Shown one piece after another: positions 4,915 through 45,206 of a DNA stretch of 64,000 nt. Origin of the DNA: Tolypothrix sp. PCC 7910 (GTDB lineage: Bacteria > Cyanobacteriota > Cyanobacteriia > Cyanobacteriales > Nostocaceae). Position numbers and translations under genes: made by a program. The notes beneath the pieces are model-generated. The model ran no database searches. It saw only the letters and a program-made list of their open reading frames with translations, and was not told where the DNA came from. Each line of letters opens with the position of its first letter. The stretch's first letter is position 1. The stretch spans positions 1-64,000 of the forward strand of contig NZ_CP050440.1 in the NCBI RefSeq assembly GCF_011769525.1. Direction: 5' to 3'.

Positions 4915-5171
4915 ATACCAATTCAAATAATGTTTGCGACACATCAATTATCGCAAGGCTTACCTATCCGCCTTGGAATGAATTCCAAGGGACAAAGGCA
5001 AAGTTTACTTTAGTAAACTGGGGATAAGTGATAATTTTTAGTCATCTTAAGATGACTTTTGTTATGAGACTCAGAATTCATTCTGAGGCGGGCTATGAGT
5101 TTCGCGTTAAGTTAACACCAATGGGCAATGCTGCCCCTACAATCTGTCGCATTCTTTTTTTAAATTGGTAT
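4915..5171. repeat. MITE-like repeat (ATACCAATT ends), copy a, interrupted by a four-hairpin element
   Basis: The left end ATACCAATTCAAAT continues into TGTTTGCGACACATCAAT. The right end is GCATTC followed by a T-run and AAATTGGTAT, the inverted copy of the left end. The family is normally about 100 bp (compare 25233-25332). Here it is 257 bp because a four-hairpin element sits in its middle. The structure implies a nested insertion. Confidence 0.7.
4966..5093. repeat. Four-hairpin repeat element, copy A
   Basis: Four perfect short inverted repeats lie in tandem: 4971-4990, 5002-5019, 5040-5057 and 5070-5087. All fold with a TNNA tetraloop, and CCG/GCGGG at 4968 and 5088 forms a closing stem. 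The spacers are 11, 20 and 12 nt. Compared with copies at 33.3 and 45.1 kb, stems 1 and 2 differ by compensated base-pair changes and stem 4 is replaced by another perfect stem. GCGTTAAGTTAACAC to its right resembles the terminal repeat of copy C. Confidence 0.8.
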
Positions 5172-14580: not shown

Positions 14581-14965
14581 TTTTATGTTTTAGCAGATTT
14601 AAGATAGTATACAAATTCTGACTAATTCACTAGCACAACTAAGGCTATGATGCATAAATCAGGCTGGTAGCAGTGCAAATTTACATTAGTCAATATTTCT
14701 ACATATTTATACTTGTTATGCACTGATAGGCATCATTAAATCTGTTGTAATAAGTTACTGATGAAACATCGATCAATCTTTTAATTAAACTCATGGTTGT
14801 TGTGCAATACAGTGTAGGCAATCAAGATTCGTTGAGCGATCGCTACTCCTGTATTTAACAAACAATATCCGCCGCTTTGTTGGCAGATCTGGATAAATCA
14901 TTTGAAAAAATACTAAATAAGACCGCATCTGTACCTCGCAGATGTGTTTCCACAAAAATAACTAA

Positions 14966-15075
14966 TAGGCGGGCATTCTGACTTACTCTATAAGAGTTCA
15001 CAGCTGCGGGACAGCGTCGGATTTGCACCGAACTTTCCCCCTTACGTCTGATGGGTGTTTGCCATCAGAACCCAT
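14966..15075 (-). promoter_or_regulatory. Cobalamin riboswitch
   Basis: Read on the minus strand, the segment contains GGGAAAGTTCGGTGCAAATC, then CGACGCTGTCCCGCAGCTGTGA (the B12-box region), and ends AAGTCAGAATGCCCGCC: the conserved core of cobalamin riboswitches. It is preceded by the GGGTTCTGATGG...CCATCAGA stem. It lies upstream of cbiM with a ~385-nt leader between. I see no clear terminator in that leader, so control may act on translation or through a structure I cannot predict by eye. Confidence 0.95.
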
Positions 15076-15238
15076 TAAATTAAAACAAAGTATATCATCA
15101 GGGAATAATTACTAATTCGTAATTCGTAATTCGTAATTAAAAAATTTAGACTGCTCACAAAAGCAGCATCTTAATTATTTTTGCTCACAGCCCTGCTTTA
15201 TAAGCAAAGGAACAATTTGTATTTCTTATTTGATTTAT

Positions 15239-33285: not shown

Positions 33286-33414
33286 TAGCCCGCCTGAGAA
33301 TGAATTCTCAGGCTAATAGCCAAAGTCTACTCAAGTAGACTCAAAATTGTGGTGATATTTAGTCATCTTGAGATGACTTTTCCTATTAGCAAGGAACTTC
33401 AGTTCCTTGCGGGA
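33286..33414. repeat. Four-hairpin repeat element, copy B
   Basis: The hairpins are at 33293-33312, 33324-33341, 33361-33378 and 33389-33410 (11-bp stem GCAAGGAACT/AGTTCCTTGC plus ends). The outer stem is CCCGC at 33289 with GCGGG at 33409. Spacers are 11, 19 and 10 nt. It sits between treY and treH. A GACGCGAT palindrome follows at 33454. Confidence 0.85.
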
Positions 33415-43156: not shown

Positions 43157-43333
43157 TTACTTCTGCTCAATCAAAGACTCTTGTAAATACCCAGCTGCTA
43201 CACAATCTTCAATTAATTGCAGTACAAAAGGCCAAAGTTCTGGTGCGCCTGTTTTTACAGGTGCAACTCGTTTCATAACTTGGTCACGTCTGATACCATG
43301 AATGCGCCAAGTTCCACCCTTTGTTTGTTGATT
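43157..43333 (-). pseudogene. 3' part of an HD-domain hydrolase gene, cut off by an IS insertion
   Basis: The minus strand reads NQQTKGGTWRIHGIRRDQV, continues MKRVAPVKTGAPELWPF and ends LQLIEDCVAAGYLQESLIEQK-stop. This is the typical C-terminus of HD_3/YfbR-like HD hydrolases (GTW...HGI..DQV..R..P...G.PELW..V...IE......GYL). It has no start of its own. It joins in frame to the 5' part at 44483-44917 once the IS and one ATT are removed. Confidence 0.85.
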
Positions 43334-44482
43334 AGACCCGTCCGAAAACTCGCAAGCCTATATTTACAAGGCTTTGAGACCAGTCCTTGCAGATTCTGTT
43401 GCAATGGAACAATAAGTGTTTGATATAGTTACTGATAGTTTAGAGCAGAAAAATACATAATCTTGCCTAACGCAAACACAATTTTTAATTGATACTAATT
43501 TATGGCGCTATTCGGTAATACGAAAGTGCCAATTCGCAGTCTTACTAGACCACAAACTAACAAAACTATTTCATTATAAACATCAGCATTTAATCTAAAT
43601 CTTTGTGATGCCACTTGGAAAATTTTTACAATACGTATTAAATGCTCAACAAATATACGCTTACTTGATAGAGCTTTATTTTCTTCTTTTTGTTGTTCAT
43701 TTAATTGTTGTTTTCTTTTCTTCTTATGAGGGGTAGTAATATTATTCCCACCTTGATACGCTTTATCTCCCGTAAATTCTTGTTTTTCATCAAATTTTGT
43801 TTGTTGCTCTCTAAATAATTTTATGTCTGCTGTTGGCCCTGGAGAGCCTACTGTAACATCAATAATATCTTTTCCCTCTGGCAAGGAAACTATCTGGTTT
43901 TTTATAGTATGCTGTTTTTTCTTTCCCGAAAAGAACTTTTTCTGTTCTTCGTTGTCAGATGGTCTATCTATAGGCTGTTCTACGCTATCAACTAGCAACT
44001 TAAAATTCGTTAATATTTCTTGTATAATGAGCAAATCTCCTTCTTTATTTTCTACTTGCTCTATTAAACTAGAAGGGAGAATCTTACGTAATATTTTTCT
44101 CCAGTAATGAAAAGTATCATTAGATAAAGTTTTTGATATACCAAACATTATTCCTAAAACTTCAAATGTGGGTATTTGTCTCAGATAAAACAAGCACAAA
44201 CATACTTGTTCTGGGATGGATAATAATTCTTTGCGTCCACCTCCACGACGATGTATTCTAACTTTCTTCTGTTCCAATTTGAGTTGTTCTTCTTCATGAC
44301 TGTTTTTAGCATAGTTTACAAGGTCAGTAAATTGGTCATAACTAATCCCCAAAAGTTGCTTTGCTCTTCGTGGATACTTTTGTATATAATCAAATATACT
44401 AATCATTTAATTAAATTTTGGTAGAGGGTCAATTTTACTTTCTACCATTTTTTTGTACCCAATTCATATTCCGGACGTGTCT
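43334..44482 (-). mobile_element. IS5-family insertion sequence, complete
   Basis: 1149 bp. Terminal inverted repeats AGACCCGTCCGAAAA (left) and AGACACGTCCGGAAT (right, inverted) match at all but three of 15 positions. The flanks are ATT at 43331-43333 and ATT at 44483-44485, a 3-bp target duplication of the A-N-T type known for the ISL2 group. One transposase gene fills most of it. It is inserted in an HD-domain hydrolase gene, whose two parts rejoin in frame if the IS and one ATT are removed. Confidence 0.9.
43495..44406 (-). CDS. IS5-family transposase (DDE_Tnp_4 type)
   Basis: 303 residues. An N-terminal helix-turn-helix (about 60-110; KELLSIPEQVCLCLFYLRQ) precedes a DDE catalytic core: D in LLVDSVEQP, D in GPTADIKLF and E in RIFVEHLIRIVKIF. 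It is rich in Lys (KKKRKQQ) for DNA binding. Full length and uninterrupted, so the element may be active. There is no HIP1 site within the gene, unlike host genes nearby. The ATG is at 44406 on the minus strand. Confidence 0.92.
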   Translation of the reverse strand: MISIFDYIQKYPRRAKQLLGISYDQFTDLVNYAKNSHEEEQLKLEQKKVRIHRRGGGRKELLSIPEQVCLCLFYLRQIPTFEVLGIMFGISKTLSNDTFHYWRKILRKILPSSLIEQVENKEGDLLIIQEILTNFKLLVDSVEQPIDRPSDNEEQKKFFSGKKKQHTIKNQIVSLPEGKDIIDVTVGSPGPTADIKLFREQQTKFDEKQEFTGDKAYQGGNNITTPHKKKRKQQLNEQQKEENKALSSKRIFVEHLIRIVKIFQVASQRFRLNADVYNEIVLLVCGLVRLRIGTFVLPNSAIN

Positions 44483-44917
44483 ATTGTGTAGCAAAGGTTG
44501 TATCCGGTCTAATGCTGCGGCAAACTTAGAAGTGGGTGTTTCCCCAGCTTCAAATTCATCCCACAGCGAACGTAATTCGCTACCGATATCTGTGGGTAAA
44601 ATTCCAAATAGCCGCGATGCTGCTTGTAATTCTTTCTCTGCCTTACTAGAATTAGCTTGCACATCGTAGCAGAAGGTATCGCCAGCATCAATTTCTACTA
44701 AATCATGAATCAATAGCATTTTGATCGCTTGCATAATATCAACACCATCTGGTGCATATTCTGCTAGCGTCATCGCCATTATTGCTAAATGCCAAGAATG
44801 TTCTGCACTGTTTTCTCGGCGCGATCCATCTATCAGCAGGGTTTGGCGAAATATCTGCTTCAAGCGGTCAATTTCGATGATGAATTGAATTTGTTGCGTC
44901 AGTCTGTCGGTTTGCAC
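44435..44917 (-). pseudogene. 5' part of an HD-domain hydrolase gene (YfbR-like), truncated by the IS
   Basis: 160 codons as it now reads: about 145 host codons ending DRIQPLLHN, then codons from the IS end (RHVRNMNWVQKNGRK-stop). The HD metal site is intact: H in SAEHSWHLA, HD in LLIHDLVEIDAGD. Family members are dNMP 5'-nucleotidases or related phosphohydrolases. The C-terminal ~58 residues have been displaced to 43157-43333. The start is GTG at 44917 with a weak ribosome-binding site. The truncated product may still fold partly, but I treat the gene as broken. Confidence 0.85.
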
Positions 44918-44943: not shown

Positions 44944-45011
44944 ATACCAATTCAAATCATGTTTGCAACACATCAATATATTCTAGAGGTCATGGCAGTG
45001 CCCATTGGTAT
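44944..45011. repeat. MITE-like repeat (ATACCAATT ends), copy e, internally deleted
   Basis: ATACCAATTCAAATCATGTT to GCAACACATCAATATATTC and TAGAGGTCATGGCAGTGCCC, then directly ATTGGTAT. The right half is missing, and the terminal GGTATCAACTTAAGC merges with the left end of the four-hairpin element. Confidence 0.7.
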
Positions 45012-45203
45012 CAACTTAAGCTAAAAATAGCCTCTGTCTTAGCTTTGCCGTCCGCCTGAGAATGAATTCTCAGGGCCAAAGCCAAAGTCTACTGAAGTAG
45101 ACTCAAGATTTTGAGAATATTTAGTCATCTTGAGATGACTTTGACTATTAGCAAGGAACTTCAGTTCCTTGCGGTATCTGGGTTTTGCGTTAAGTTGACA
45201 CAG
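45003..45203. repeat. Four-hairpin repeat element, copy C, with terminal inverted repeats
   Basis: The hairpins are at 45055-45074, 45086-45103, 45123-45140 and 45151-45172; the outer stem is CCGC/GCGG. Outside these, GGTATCAACTTAAGC at about 45007 is an imperfect inverse of GCGTTAAGTTGACAC at about 45187-45201. The whole unit is therefore ~195 bp with terminal inverted repeats, like a non-autonomous transposable element. Confidence 0.8.
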
Positions 45204-45206
45204 GTG

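Follow-up and report, generated by a model that had tools for sequence, protein, structure and literature searches.

The closest described relatives of the element reported here are the REPtrons, in which REP, BIME and REPIN repeats are found together with a RAYT (TnpA_REP) transposase. In those parts of the published accounts that we draw on (PMC6006769, PMC8266576, PMC3733652, PMC3116915), the repeats are short palindromes in intergenic DNA whose stems vary in a compensated manner and whose loops measure 2 nt. They occur alone, as inverted pairs or in tandem sets next to a low-copy Y1 gene of the same subtype, and a tetranucleotide of the form xxAG lies unpaired on the 5' side of the hairpin foot; each of these traits has a counterpart in our element. 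TIRtrons, in the relevant part of PMC3733652, are Y1 genes flanked by dispersed inverted repeats, some of which comprise two palindromes, a precedent for the double palindromes that accompany a Y1 gene here. TIRtrons were described for RAYT-type proteins of other phyla, and the likeness to our element is one of description. The PATEs of the IS200/IS605 group, according to the portion of PMC3119063 used here, resemble it in being non-autonomous, in having palindromes near their ends, in being left behind after loss of the Y1 gene and in being targeted by small repeats; unlike our element, with its inverted halves of two hairpins each, they have no terminal inverted repeats and originate from IS605-type transposons. 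Cyanobacterial miniature elements (MITEs) such as Nezha, compared by description only from parts of PMC10969869 and PMC3733652, find a parallel in the MITE shell around one of our copies, whereas the hairpin core described here also occurs without a shell. As for enzymes, TnpA_Y1 subclass 1.2 is presented in the consulted part of PMC6006769 as low-copy, found mostly in Cyanobacteria and Bacteroidetes, and generally without typical IS200 end structures, with 'no' in the REP column.

The window analysed here is a 64,000-nucleotide stretch of Tolypothrix sp. PCC 7910 (contig NZ_CP050440.1, positions 1 to 64,000). An initial annotation of it, made from the sequence alone, had proposed three copies of an element with four perfect short hairpins, near-constant spacers and an outer CCGC/GCGG stem, and all three were found so. 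Their parts are listed below with scores from R1, a covariance model trained on 81 half-units that flank transposase genes in the Tolypothrix genome and in 27 other genomes with such loci:

4966–5093, plus strand: copy A, four-hairpin unit (hairpins 4971–4990, 5002–5019, 5040–5057 and 5070–5087)
4971–5019, minus strand: left half-unit of copy A (outer hairpin, then a spacer lacking the canonical motif, then the inner hairpin), a weak R1 match (14.7 bits, E 0.044)
5040–5088, plus strand: right half-unit of copy A (R1, 50.8 bits, E 7.4e-12)
5107–5123, plus strand: right end of an ISAs1-type MITE shell belonging to copy A (TTAAGTTAACAC with a single mismatch, extended by 5 nt taken from the end consensus)
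33286–33414, plus strand: copy B, four-hairpin unit (hairpins 33293–33312, 33324–33341, 33361–33378 and 33389–33410)
33293–33341, minus strand: left half-unit of copy B, the top R1 match in the window (63.0 bits, E 3.9e-15)
33361–33409, plus strand: right half-unit of copy B (R1, E 1.7e-11)
45003–45206, plus strand: copy C with its full MITE shell, 204 bp in all (inverted ends GTATCAACTTAA at 45008–45019, one mismatch, and TTAAGTTGACAC at 45190–45201, with 5 nt outside each)
45051–45175, plus strand: copy C, four-hairpin unit (hairpins 45055–45074, 45086–45103, 45123–45140 and 45151–45172)
45055–45103, minus strand: left half-unit of copy C (R1, E 4.1e-7)
45123–45171, plus strand: right half-unit of copy C (R1, E 7.8e-12)

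Each copy consists of one half-unit of about 49 nt present twice in opposite orientation, hairpins 1 and 2 against hairpins 3 and 4. Read from the inside out, the half-unit comprises an 18-nt inner hairpin (8 bp around a 2-nt centre, in most cases AGTC...GACT), a spacer of roughly 10–12 nt containing GCTAT[T/G]AG, an outer hairpin of 8–10 bp, again with a 2-nt centre, and GCGG. All 12 hairpins are perfect and all 12 have the T-NN-A centre that had been noted for them; the sole loop outside the narrower T-TN-A form is the TAAA of the second, inner hairpin of copy A (A-2). The compensated changes claimed for stems 1 and 2 and the replacement of stem 4 by a different stem are likewise present. 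R1 recovers all six halves, the left half of A weakly (E 0.044). The ORFs on either side of copy A diverge, and at B and at C the two neighbouring ORFs share one strand. Elsewhere in the window, a stretch of about 1.15 kb at 43331–44486 recurs more than 20 times elsewhere in the genome at 100% identity and looks like a recently active insertion sequence, and a Cobalamin riboswitch lies at 14951–15090 on the minus strand.

The element is far from confined to the window. A blastn search with copy C returned 53 matches in the 8.76-Mb genome, including three identical 125-mers at distant sites (copy C being one of them), and R1 detected 88 half-units at E ≤ 0.01 with 150 of 2967 candidates scored. 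With these 88 half-units and three window copies that all lie between ORFs, the element behaves as a dispersed intergenic palindrome of the REP/REPIN kind. Further copies elsewhere, on which the initial annotation had staked its reading, are plentiful: with up to 31 candidates scored in each genome, R1 matches at E ≤ 1e-4 occur in 121 of the 195 genomes of the order, and with up to 20 scored, matches at E ≤ 1e-5 occur in 54 of 292 genomes sampled from the phylum. Between close genomes, presence varies. The hairpin cores of B and C are missing from the matching regions (90–96%) of three same-genus genomes (G196, G197 and G198); a clean insertion junction was found at neither copy against these genomes, which in the region of copy C differ by more than the element. 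Half-unit presence also differs between the Hormoscilla genome G167 and genomes G180 and G127, where the flanks were too diverged for an insertion boundary to be found. Nostoc plasmids contain two matches to the copy C MITE (77–79%), and a plasmid search with the transposase protein introduced below gave no match at E ≤ 1e-20.

Two further observations concern the surroundings of individual half-units. By eye, the single half-units of G167 (L154–L173) share an outside flank, TCTCACTTCGCTGT.AG, and towards the inside they often have a stretch resembling TGCTACAATT. In six loci (L018, L022, L030, L071, L073 and L076), the centres of outer hairpins appear to contain an inserted copy of a different small repeat, whose ends resemble GATGCTGTTGGC; this repeat itself has a hairpin pair ending in GCGGG (for example, at about 360–620 of L076). 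Small repeats that target the near-terminal palindromes of PATEs have been described, within the portion of PMC3119063 consulted.

Many of the four-hairpin units of the Tolypothrix genome sit in a MITE of about 204 bp, the ends of which match a 1378-bp ISAs1-family element of the same genome; in the examined copy of the latter, the gene is split into two overlapping ORFs. A scan for this shell covered 29 distinct units in 35 Tolypothrix loci, a set biased towards the shell because most loci came from the blastn search with copy C, and found both ends in 19 units, one in 7 and none in 3. Among the 19 two-ended units, an exact 9-bp duplication was seen in 7 and a match of at least 7/9 in 12. The window copies span this range: C is a full MITE, A keeps one end (its left end was not found) and B has none at ≤2 mismatches. 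As a family, the MITE has what such elements are recognised by, namely inverted ends in common with an autonomous element and target duplication; copy C itself is without the 9-bp duplication (3/9 match). A DDE-type route, marked by inverted ends and the 9-bp duplication, has probably made many of the near-identical copies, the ancestor of C included.

These results lend themselves to an alternative explanation, that the hairpins are filler without a role inside an ordinary ISAs1-derived MITE, whose terminal inverted repeats are moved by a DDE transposase. The two-ended majority, the seven one-ended units, the seven exact duplications (from a shell-leaning set) and the match of the ends to the 1378-bp element all agree with it. 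Set against this are the 3 of 29 units without either end and, outside Tolypothrix, the rarity of the shell in stretches taken from the best matches: a shell end within 160 bp was found at 0 of 23 half-units in twenty such stretches of G167, all of them single, at 0 of 9 in G060 and at 2 of 13 in G154. Filler also leaves unexplained both the gene association and the strand-specific loops presented below, and we regard it as unlikely.

Two side observations bear on the shell. IS4-family elements, 1444–1448 bp between end motifs (contig C1; L061, L062 and L065), share GTGTCAACTTAAG with the ISAs1-type element, an outer repeat thus common to two unrelated transposases. The MITE often lies inside another dispersed palindromic repeat with a GGCANTGCC core (window positions 44970–45010 and the flanks of other copies), and several of the 9-bp MITE duplications are palindromes of that repeat kind, such as AGCATTGCT and GGCACTGCC.

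Elsewhere in the Tolypothrix genome, hairpin units enclose a transposase gene:

C1:7396800–7398400: Y1 transposase ORF of 130 aa between hairpin units, the single such locus in the Tolypothrix genome

The protein matches PF01797, as do 22/22 aligned relatives, and the NCBIfam IS200-type model with 93 bits (cut-off 55); with REP_Tyr_transpos it scores 25.2 bits, below the cut-off of 80, and in this respect is not a class 2 TnpA_REP. Its closest solved structures are IS608 TnpA chains (E 2.8e-15). Aligned with its relatives, it displays the HUH, WQ and Y---Q--HH signatures of TnpA_Y1 subclass 1.2, with NHIH in the Tolypothrix protein where the subclass 1.2 row of PMC6006769 gives DH[IV]H; the catalytic tyrosine is absent in one of the 22 aligned proteins. 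By these signature residues, rather than by the models of the authors of PMC6006769, the predicted enzyme fits subclass 1.2. The gene is present once in the Tolypothrix genome and gives 1–5 matches per genome among the order; it is therefore not a multicopy unit of the IS200/IS605 kind in Tolypothrix, though up to five matches occur in the draft genome G128. No Bacteroidetes were among the 80 named loci of a general search for relatives. The other Y1 genes of the Tolypothrix genome were considered as partners and set aside: six of the seven Y1 hits are without these hairpins, and only the subclass-1.2 gene has them.

We then considered the association between half-units and this gene. Some gene match was present in 77 of the 195 genomes of the order, with 45 close matches (E ≤ 1e-42) in 40 genomes. 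An adjacent perfect hairpin pair occurred within 800 bp of 39 of these 45 close relatives, on both sides in 20, and was never seen in their shuffled flanks (5 per side); among weaker gene matches it was found in 5 of a chosen sample of 25. The general search yielded 134 loci, 80 of them named and overlapping in species with the 45-locus set. Of these 80, 62 had a perfect hairpin pair vs 0 after one shuffle each, and at 76 a tolerant scan detected a half-unit no more than 1 kb away, vs 3 among the shuffled (again one shuffle each); R1 half-units lay within 2.5 kb at 76/80, judged by reading the best 300 of 352 model matches. The gene is placed between inverted half-units in 21/80 loci (median span 635 bp), and the remaining named loci have half-units on one side only or in other orders, often as full four-hairpin units beside the gene; orientation calls at the 80 loci are less certain than presence calls.

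Co-occurrence between genomes points in the same direction. At least 10 half-units were found in 33 of the 40 genomes with a close gene vs 39 of the 149 without (G168 is a unit-rich example of the latter; 6 partial-gene genomes were excluded). In the phylum sample, any half-unit match was present in 20/20 gene-bearing vs 34/272 other genomes, a comparison with some circularity, since gene flanks supplied the training set of R1; the samples of order and phylum also overlap. In 4/4 genomes, with 2 to 5 gene-side units each, the gene-side units were nearest to the dispersed units of their own genome; for Tolypothrix, own-genome similarity was 0.90 after an overlapping locus had been removed. In Hormoscilla G167 the gene-side units are not of the subtype that is commonest among dispersed units, and rarer matching copies exist. 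As in a REPtron, a Y1 gene is thus flanked by the same repeats that are dispersed in its genome (39/45, 76/80 and 4/4).

A second clade with the Y...Q..HH signature (34–41% identity) is flanked at 13/15 loci, on each side, by single 18-nt hairpins starting A[G/A][T/C]C, and none of ten IS200-like relatives had such flanking hairpins; the link between subclass 1.2 and dedicated hairpins therefore looks wider than the four-hairpin element. The second-clade hairpins (L129–L143, genomes of the order) have CNNC/GNNG centres. Close gene relatives with nearby half-units were also noticed in assemblies labelled Candidatus Marithrix, Candidatus Parabeggiatoa and KSB1 MAG (L271, L286 and L294), and in Desulfamplus MAG relatives (L291 and L300) repeated AAGCCCGC...GCGGGCTT hairpins beside the gene replace the usual half-unit.

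The folds themselves are strongly non-random. DNA folding gave z = −5.56, −8.30 and −6.07 for copies A, B and C, with 0/200 shuffles as good in each case, and, together with the high copy number, these values exclude chance as the source of the hairpin element. For a test independent of pairing, half-units were chosen by GCTAT[T/G]AG alone; of 96, 61 had both hairpins (at least 7/8 pairs), 25 had a single one and 10 had neither, and in the 25 weaker loci both were present in 0/4. Across 81 distinct half-units, 87.4% of cells pair vs 67.3% in shuffles, changes on both sides affect 266 cells vs 92.1, and the covariation score is 0.518 vs 0.191, none of these values being reached in 500 shuffles, though such scores are inflated by the relatedness of the sequences. 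Further pair types were also more numerous (46 vs 39.6; 4/500), and the number of pairs with a both-side change was not significantly raised (14 vs 11.9; 42/500). The covariation over a larger set that the initial annotation had called for was thus well above shuffles on three of five measures (81 motif-selected sequences), and, with the further copies, it supports the proposal that selection or a copying mechanism keeps a folded RNA or single-stranded DNA.

Such perfection could in principle arise without selection, if template switching or cruciform processing copied one arm onto the other. Arm copying would yield compensated changes in a single step, and it accords with the 358 of 628 scanned units in which both stems are perfect (the scan required at least 6/8 pairs per stem) and with the flipped loops of near-identical copies (hairpin 1 in 2/13, hairpin 4 in 2/13). 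It leaves unexplained why the arms keep one length around a 2-nt centre, as well as the T-TN-A strand bias, the conserved GCTAT[T/G]AG motif and the gene association, and as a full account we consider it improbable; it may act together with selection.

Strand asymmetry of the loops is informative about which molecule is folded. On the strand carrying GCTATTAG in the spacer, the loop centre starts with T in 159 inner and 157 outer hairpins of 170 distinct perfect units, of which 20 inner and 22 outer centres are TA, identical on both strands; in the window, 11/12 hairpins follow this rule, inner hairpin A-2 being the exception. Such strand-biased loops fit an enzyme reading one folded strand, and a double-stranded palindrome would have no reason for the bias.

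An RNA element, acting after transcription as a regulator or small RNA, would share the stable folds and the covariation, and an extended −10 box-like sequence (TGCTACAAT) precedes several Hormoscilla units, as judged by eye. Among 390 distinct units selected at no less than 6/8 pairs per stem (6240 cells), the 267 mismatched cells comprised 73 G.T, 62 A.C and 132 others, without a clear preference for G.T over A.C, a test that is not decisive because a transcript would read the inverted halves in opposite senses. The differing ORF settings of the window copies (A divergent, B and C same-strand), the varying presence among close genomes and the lack of an Rfam match also speak against RNA, to which we give little credence. 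At gathering scores no Rfam model matched the units of the window, Cobalamin being its only match, and five loci searched at E ≤ 0.1 gave one tRNA and one sub-threshold miRNA match, the latter on a unit (L118). Identity with a known RNA family was rejected, since there is no curated Rfam match beyond that sub-threshold hit. Single-stranded DNA fits better than RNA, given the flanked HuH/Y1 gene, the asymmetric loops, the unclear wobble preference and the negative Rfam result.

We therefore favour, with a probability of roughly two in three, the explanation that the four-hairpin element is a REPIN-like inverted pair of double-hairpin repeats belonging to a subclass-1.2 Y1 (HuH) transposase and read as folded single-stranded DNA. 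Data on anatomy, covariation, loop asymmetry, gene association, co-occurrence and presence or absence between close genomes carry this explanation; for binding, cutting, the guide role of T[T/G]AG and mobility it leans on the analogy to E. coli TnpA_REP, as laid out in part of PMC8266576. On that analogy, the subclass-1.2 enzyme most likely binds the half-unit as a folded single strand, and it would recognise the two perfect stems, the T-TN-A loops and the unpaired GCTAT[T/G]AG between the stems. T[T/G]AG may serve as the guide, in the position where REPs have GTAG. The enzyme would then cut beside the half-unit and rejoin it elsewhere, whereby half-units would spread without carrying the gene, and the inverted pair would be the REPIN-like form of a REP-like half-unit. 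Being read as folded single strands by the enzyme is most likely why the repeats spread and keep their folds. Counting against this explanation are the 39/149 unit-rich genomes without a close gene, the divergent G167 subtype, the mixed orientation at gene loci, the lack of clean junctions, the DDE-type marks of the MITE and the tyrosine-less protein.

Unlike REPtrons, the element has two hairpins per unit and a GCTAT[T/G]AG spacer, and its putative enzyme belongs to class 1, the IS200 side, as subclass 1.2, whereas that of REPtrons belongs to class 2. A GTAG or GTRG-like tetranucleotide at the hairpin foot is absent from the consensus of the half-unit alignment (A2), which has GCTAT[T/G]AG. 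Because the GTAG tag and a class 2 enzyme are missing, we do not file the element as a REPtron, though it would work like one. No description of this unit or of subclass 1.2 repeats was found in the open-licence literature, and an earlier description is possible.

On balance, we lean towards the broader view that subclass 1.2 represents a second, independent REPtron lineage arising from the IS200 side, in which a double-hairpin repeat replaces the GTAG-tagged single hairpin. This lineage would extend across cyanobacteria and, together with its repeats, into giant sulfur bacteria, and unrelated DDE-type MITEs would be able to take up its repeats and multiply them. An orphan enzyme class, described without REP or IS properties, gains a candidate substrate, and an identity is offered for a dispersed repeat of 121 of the 195 sampled genomes of the order. 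The element also provides a natural case of one small repeat that has apparently been spread by two unrelated transposition routes.
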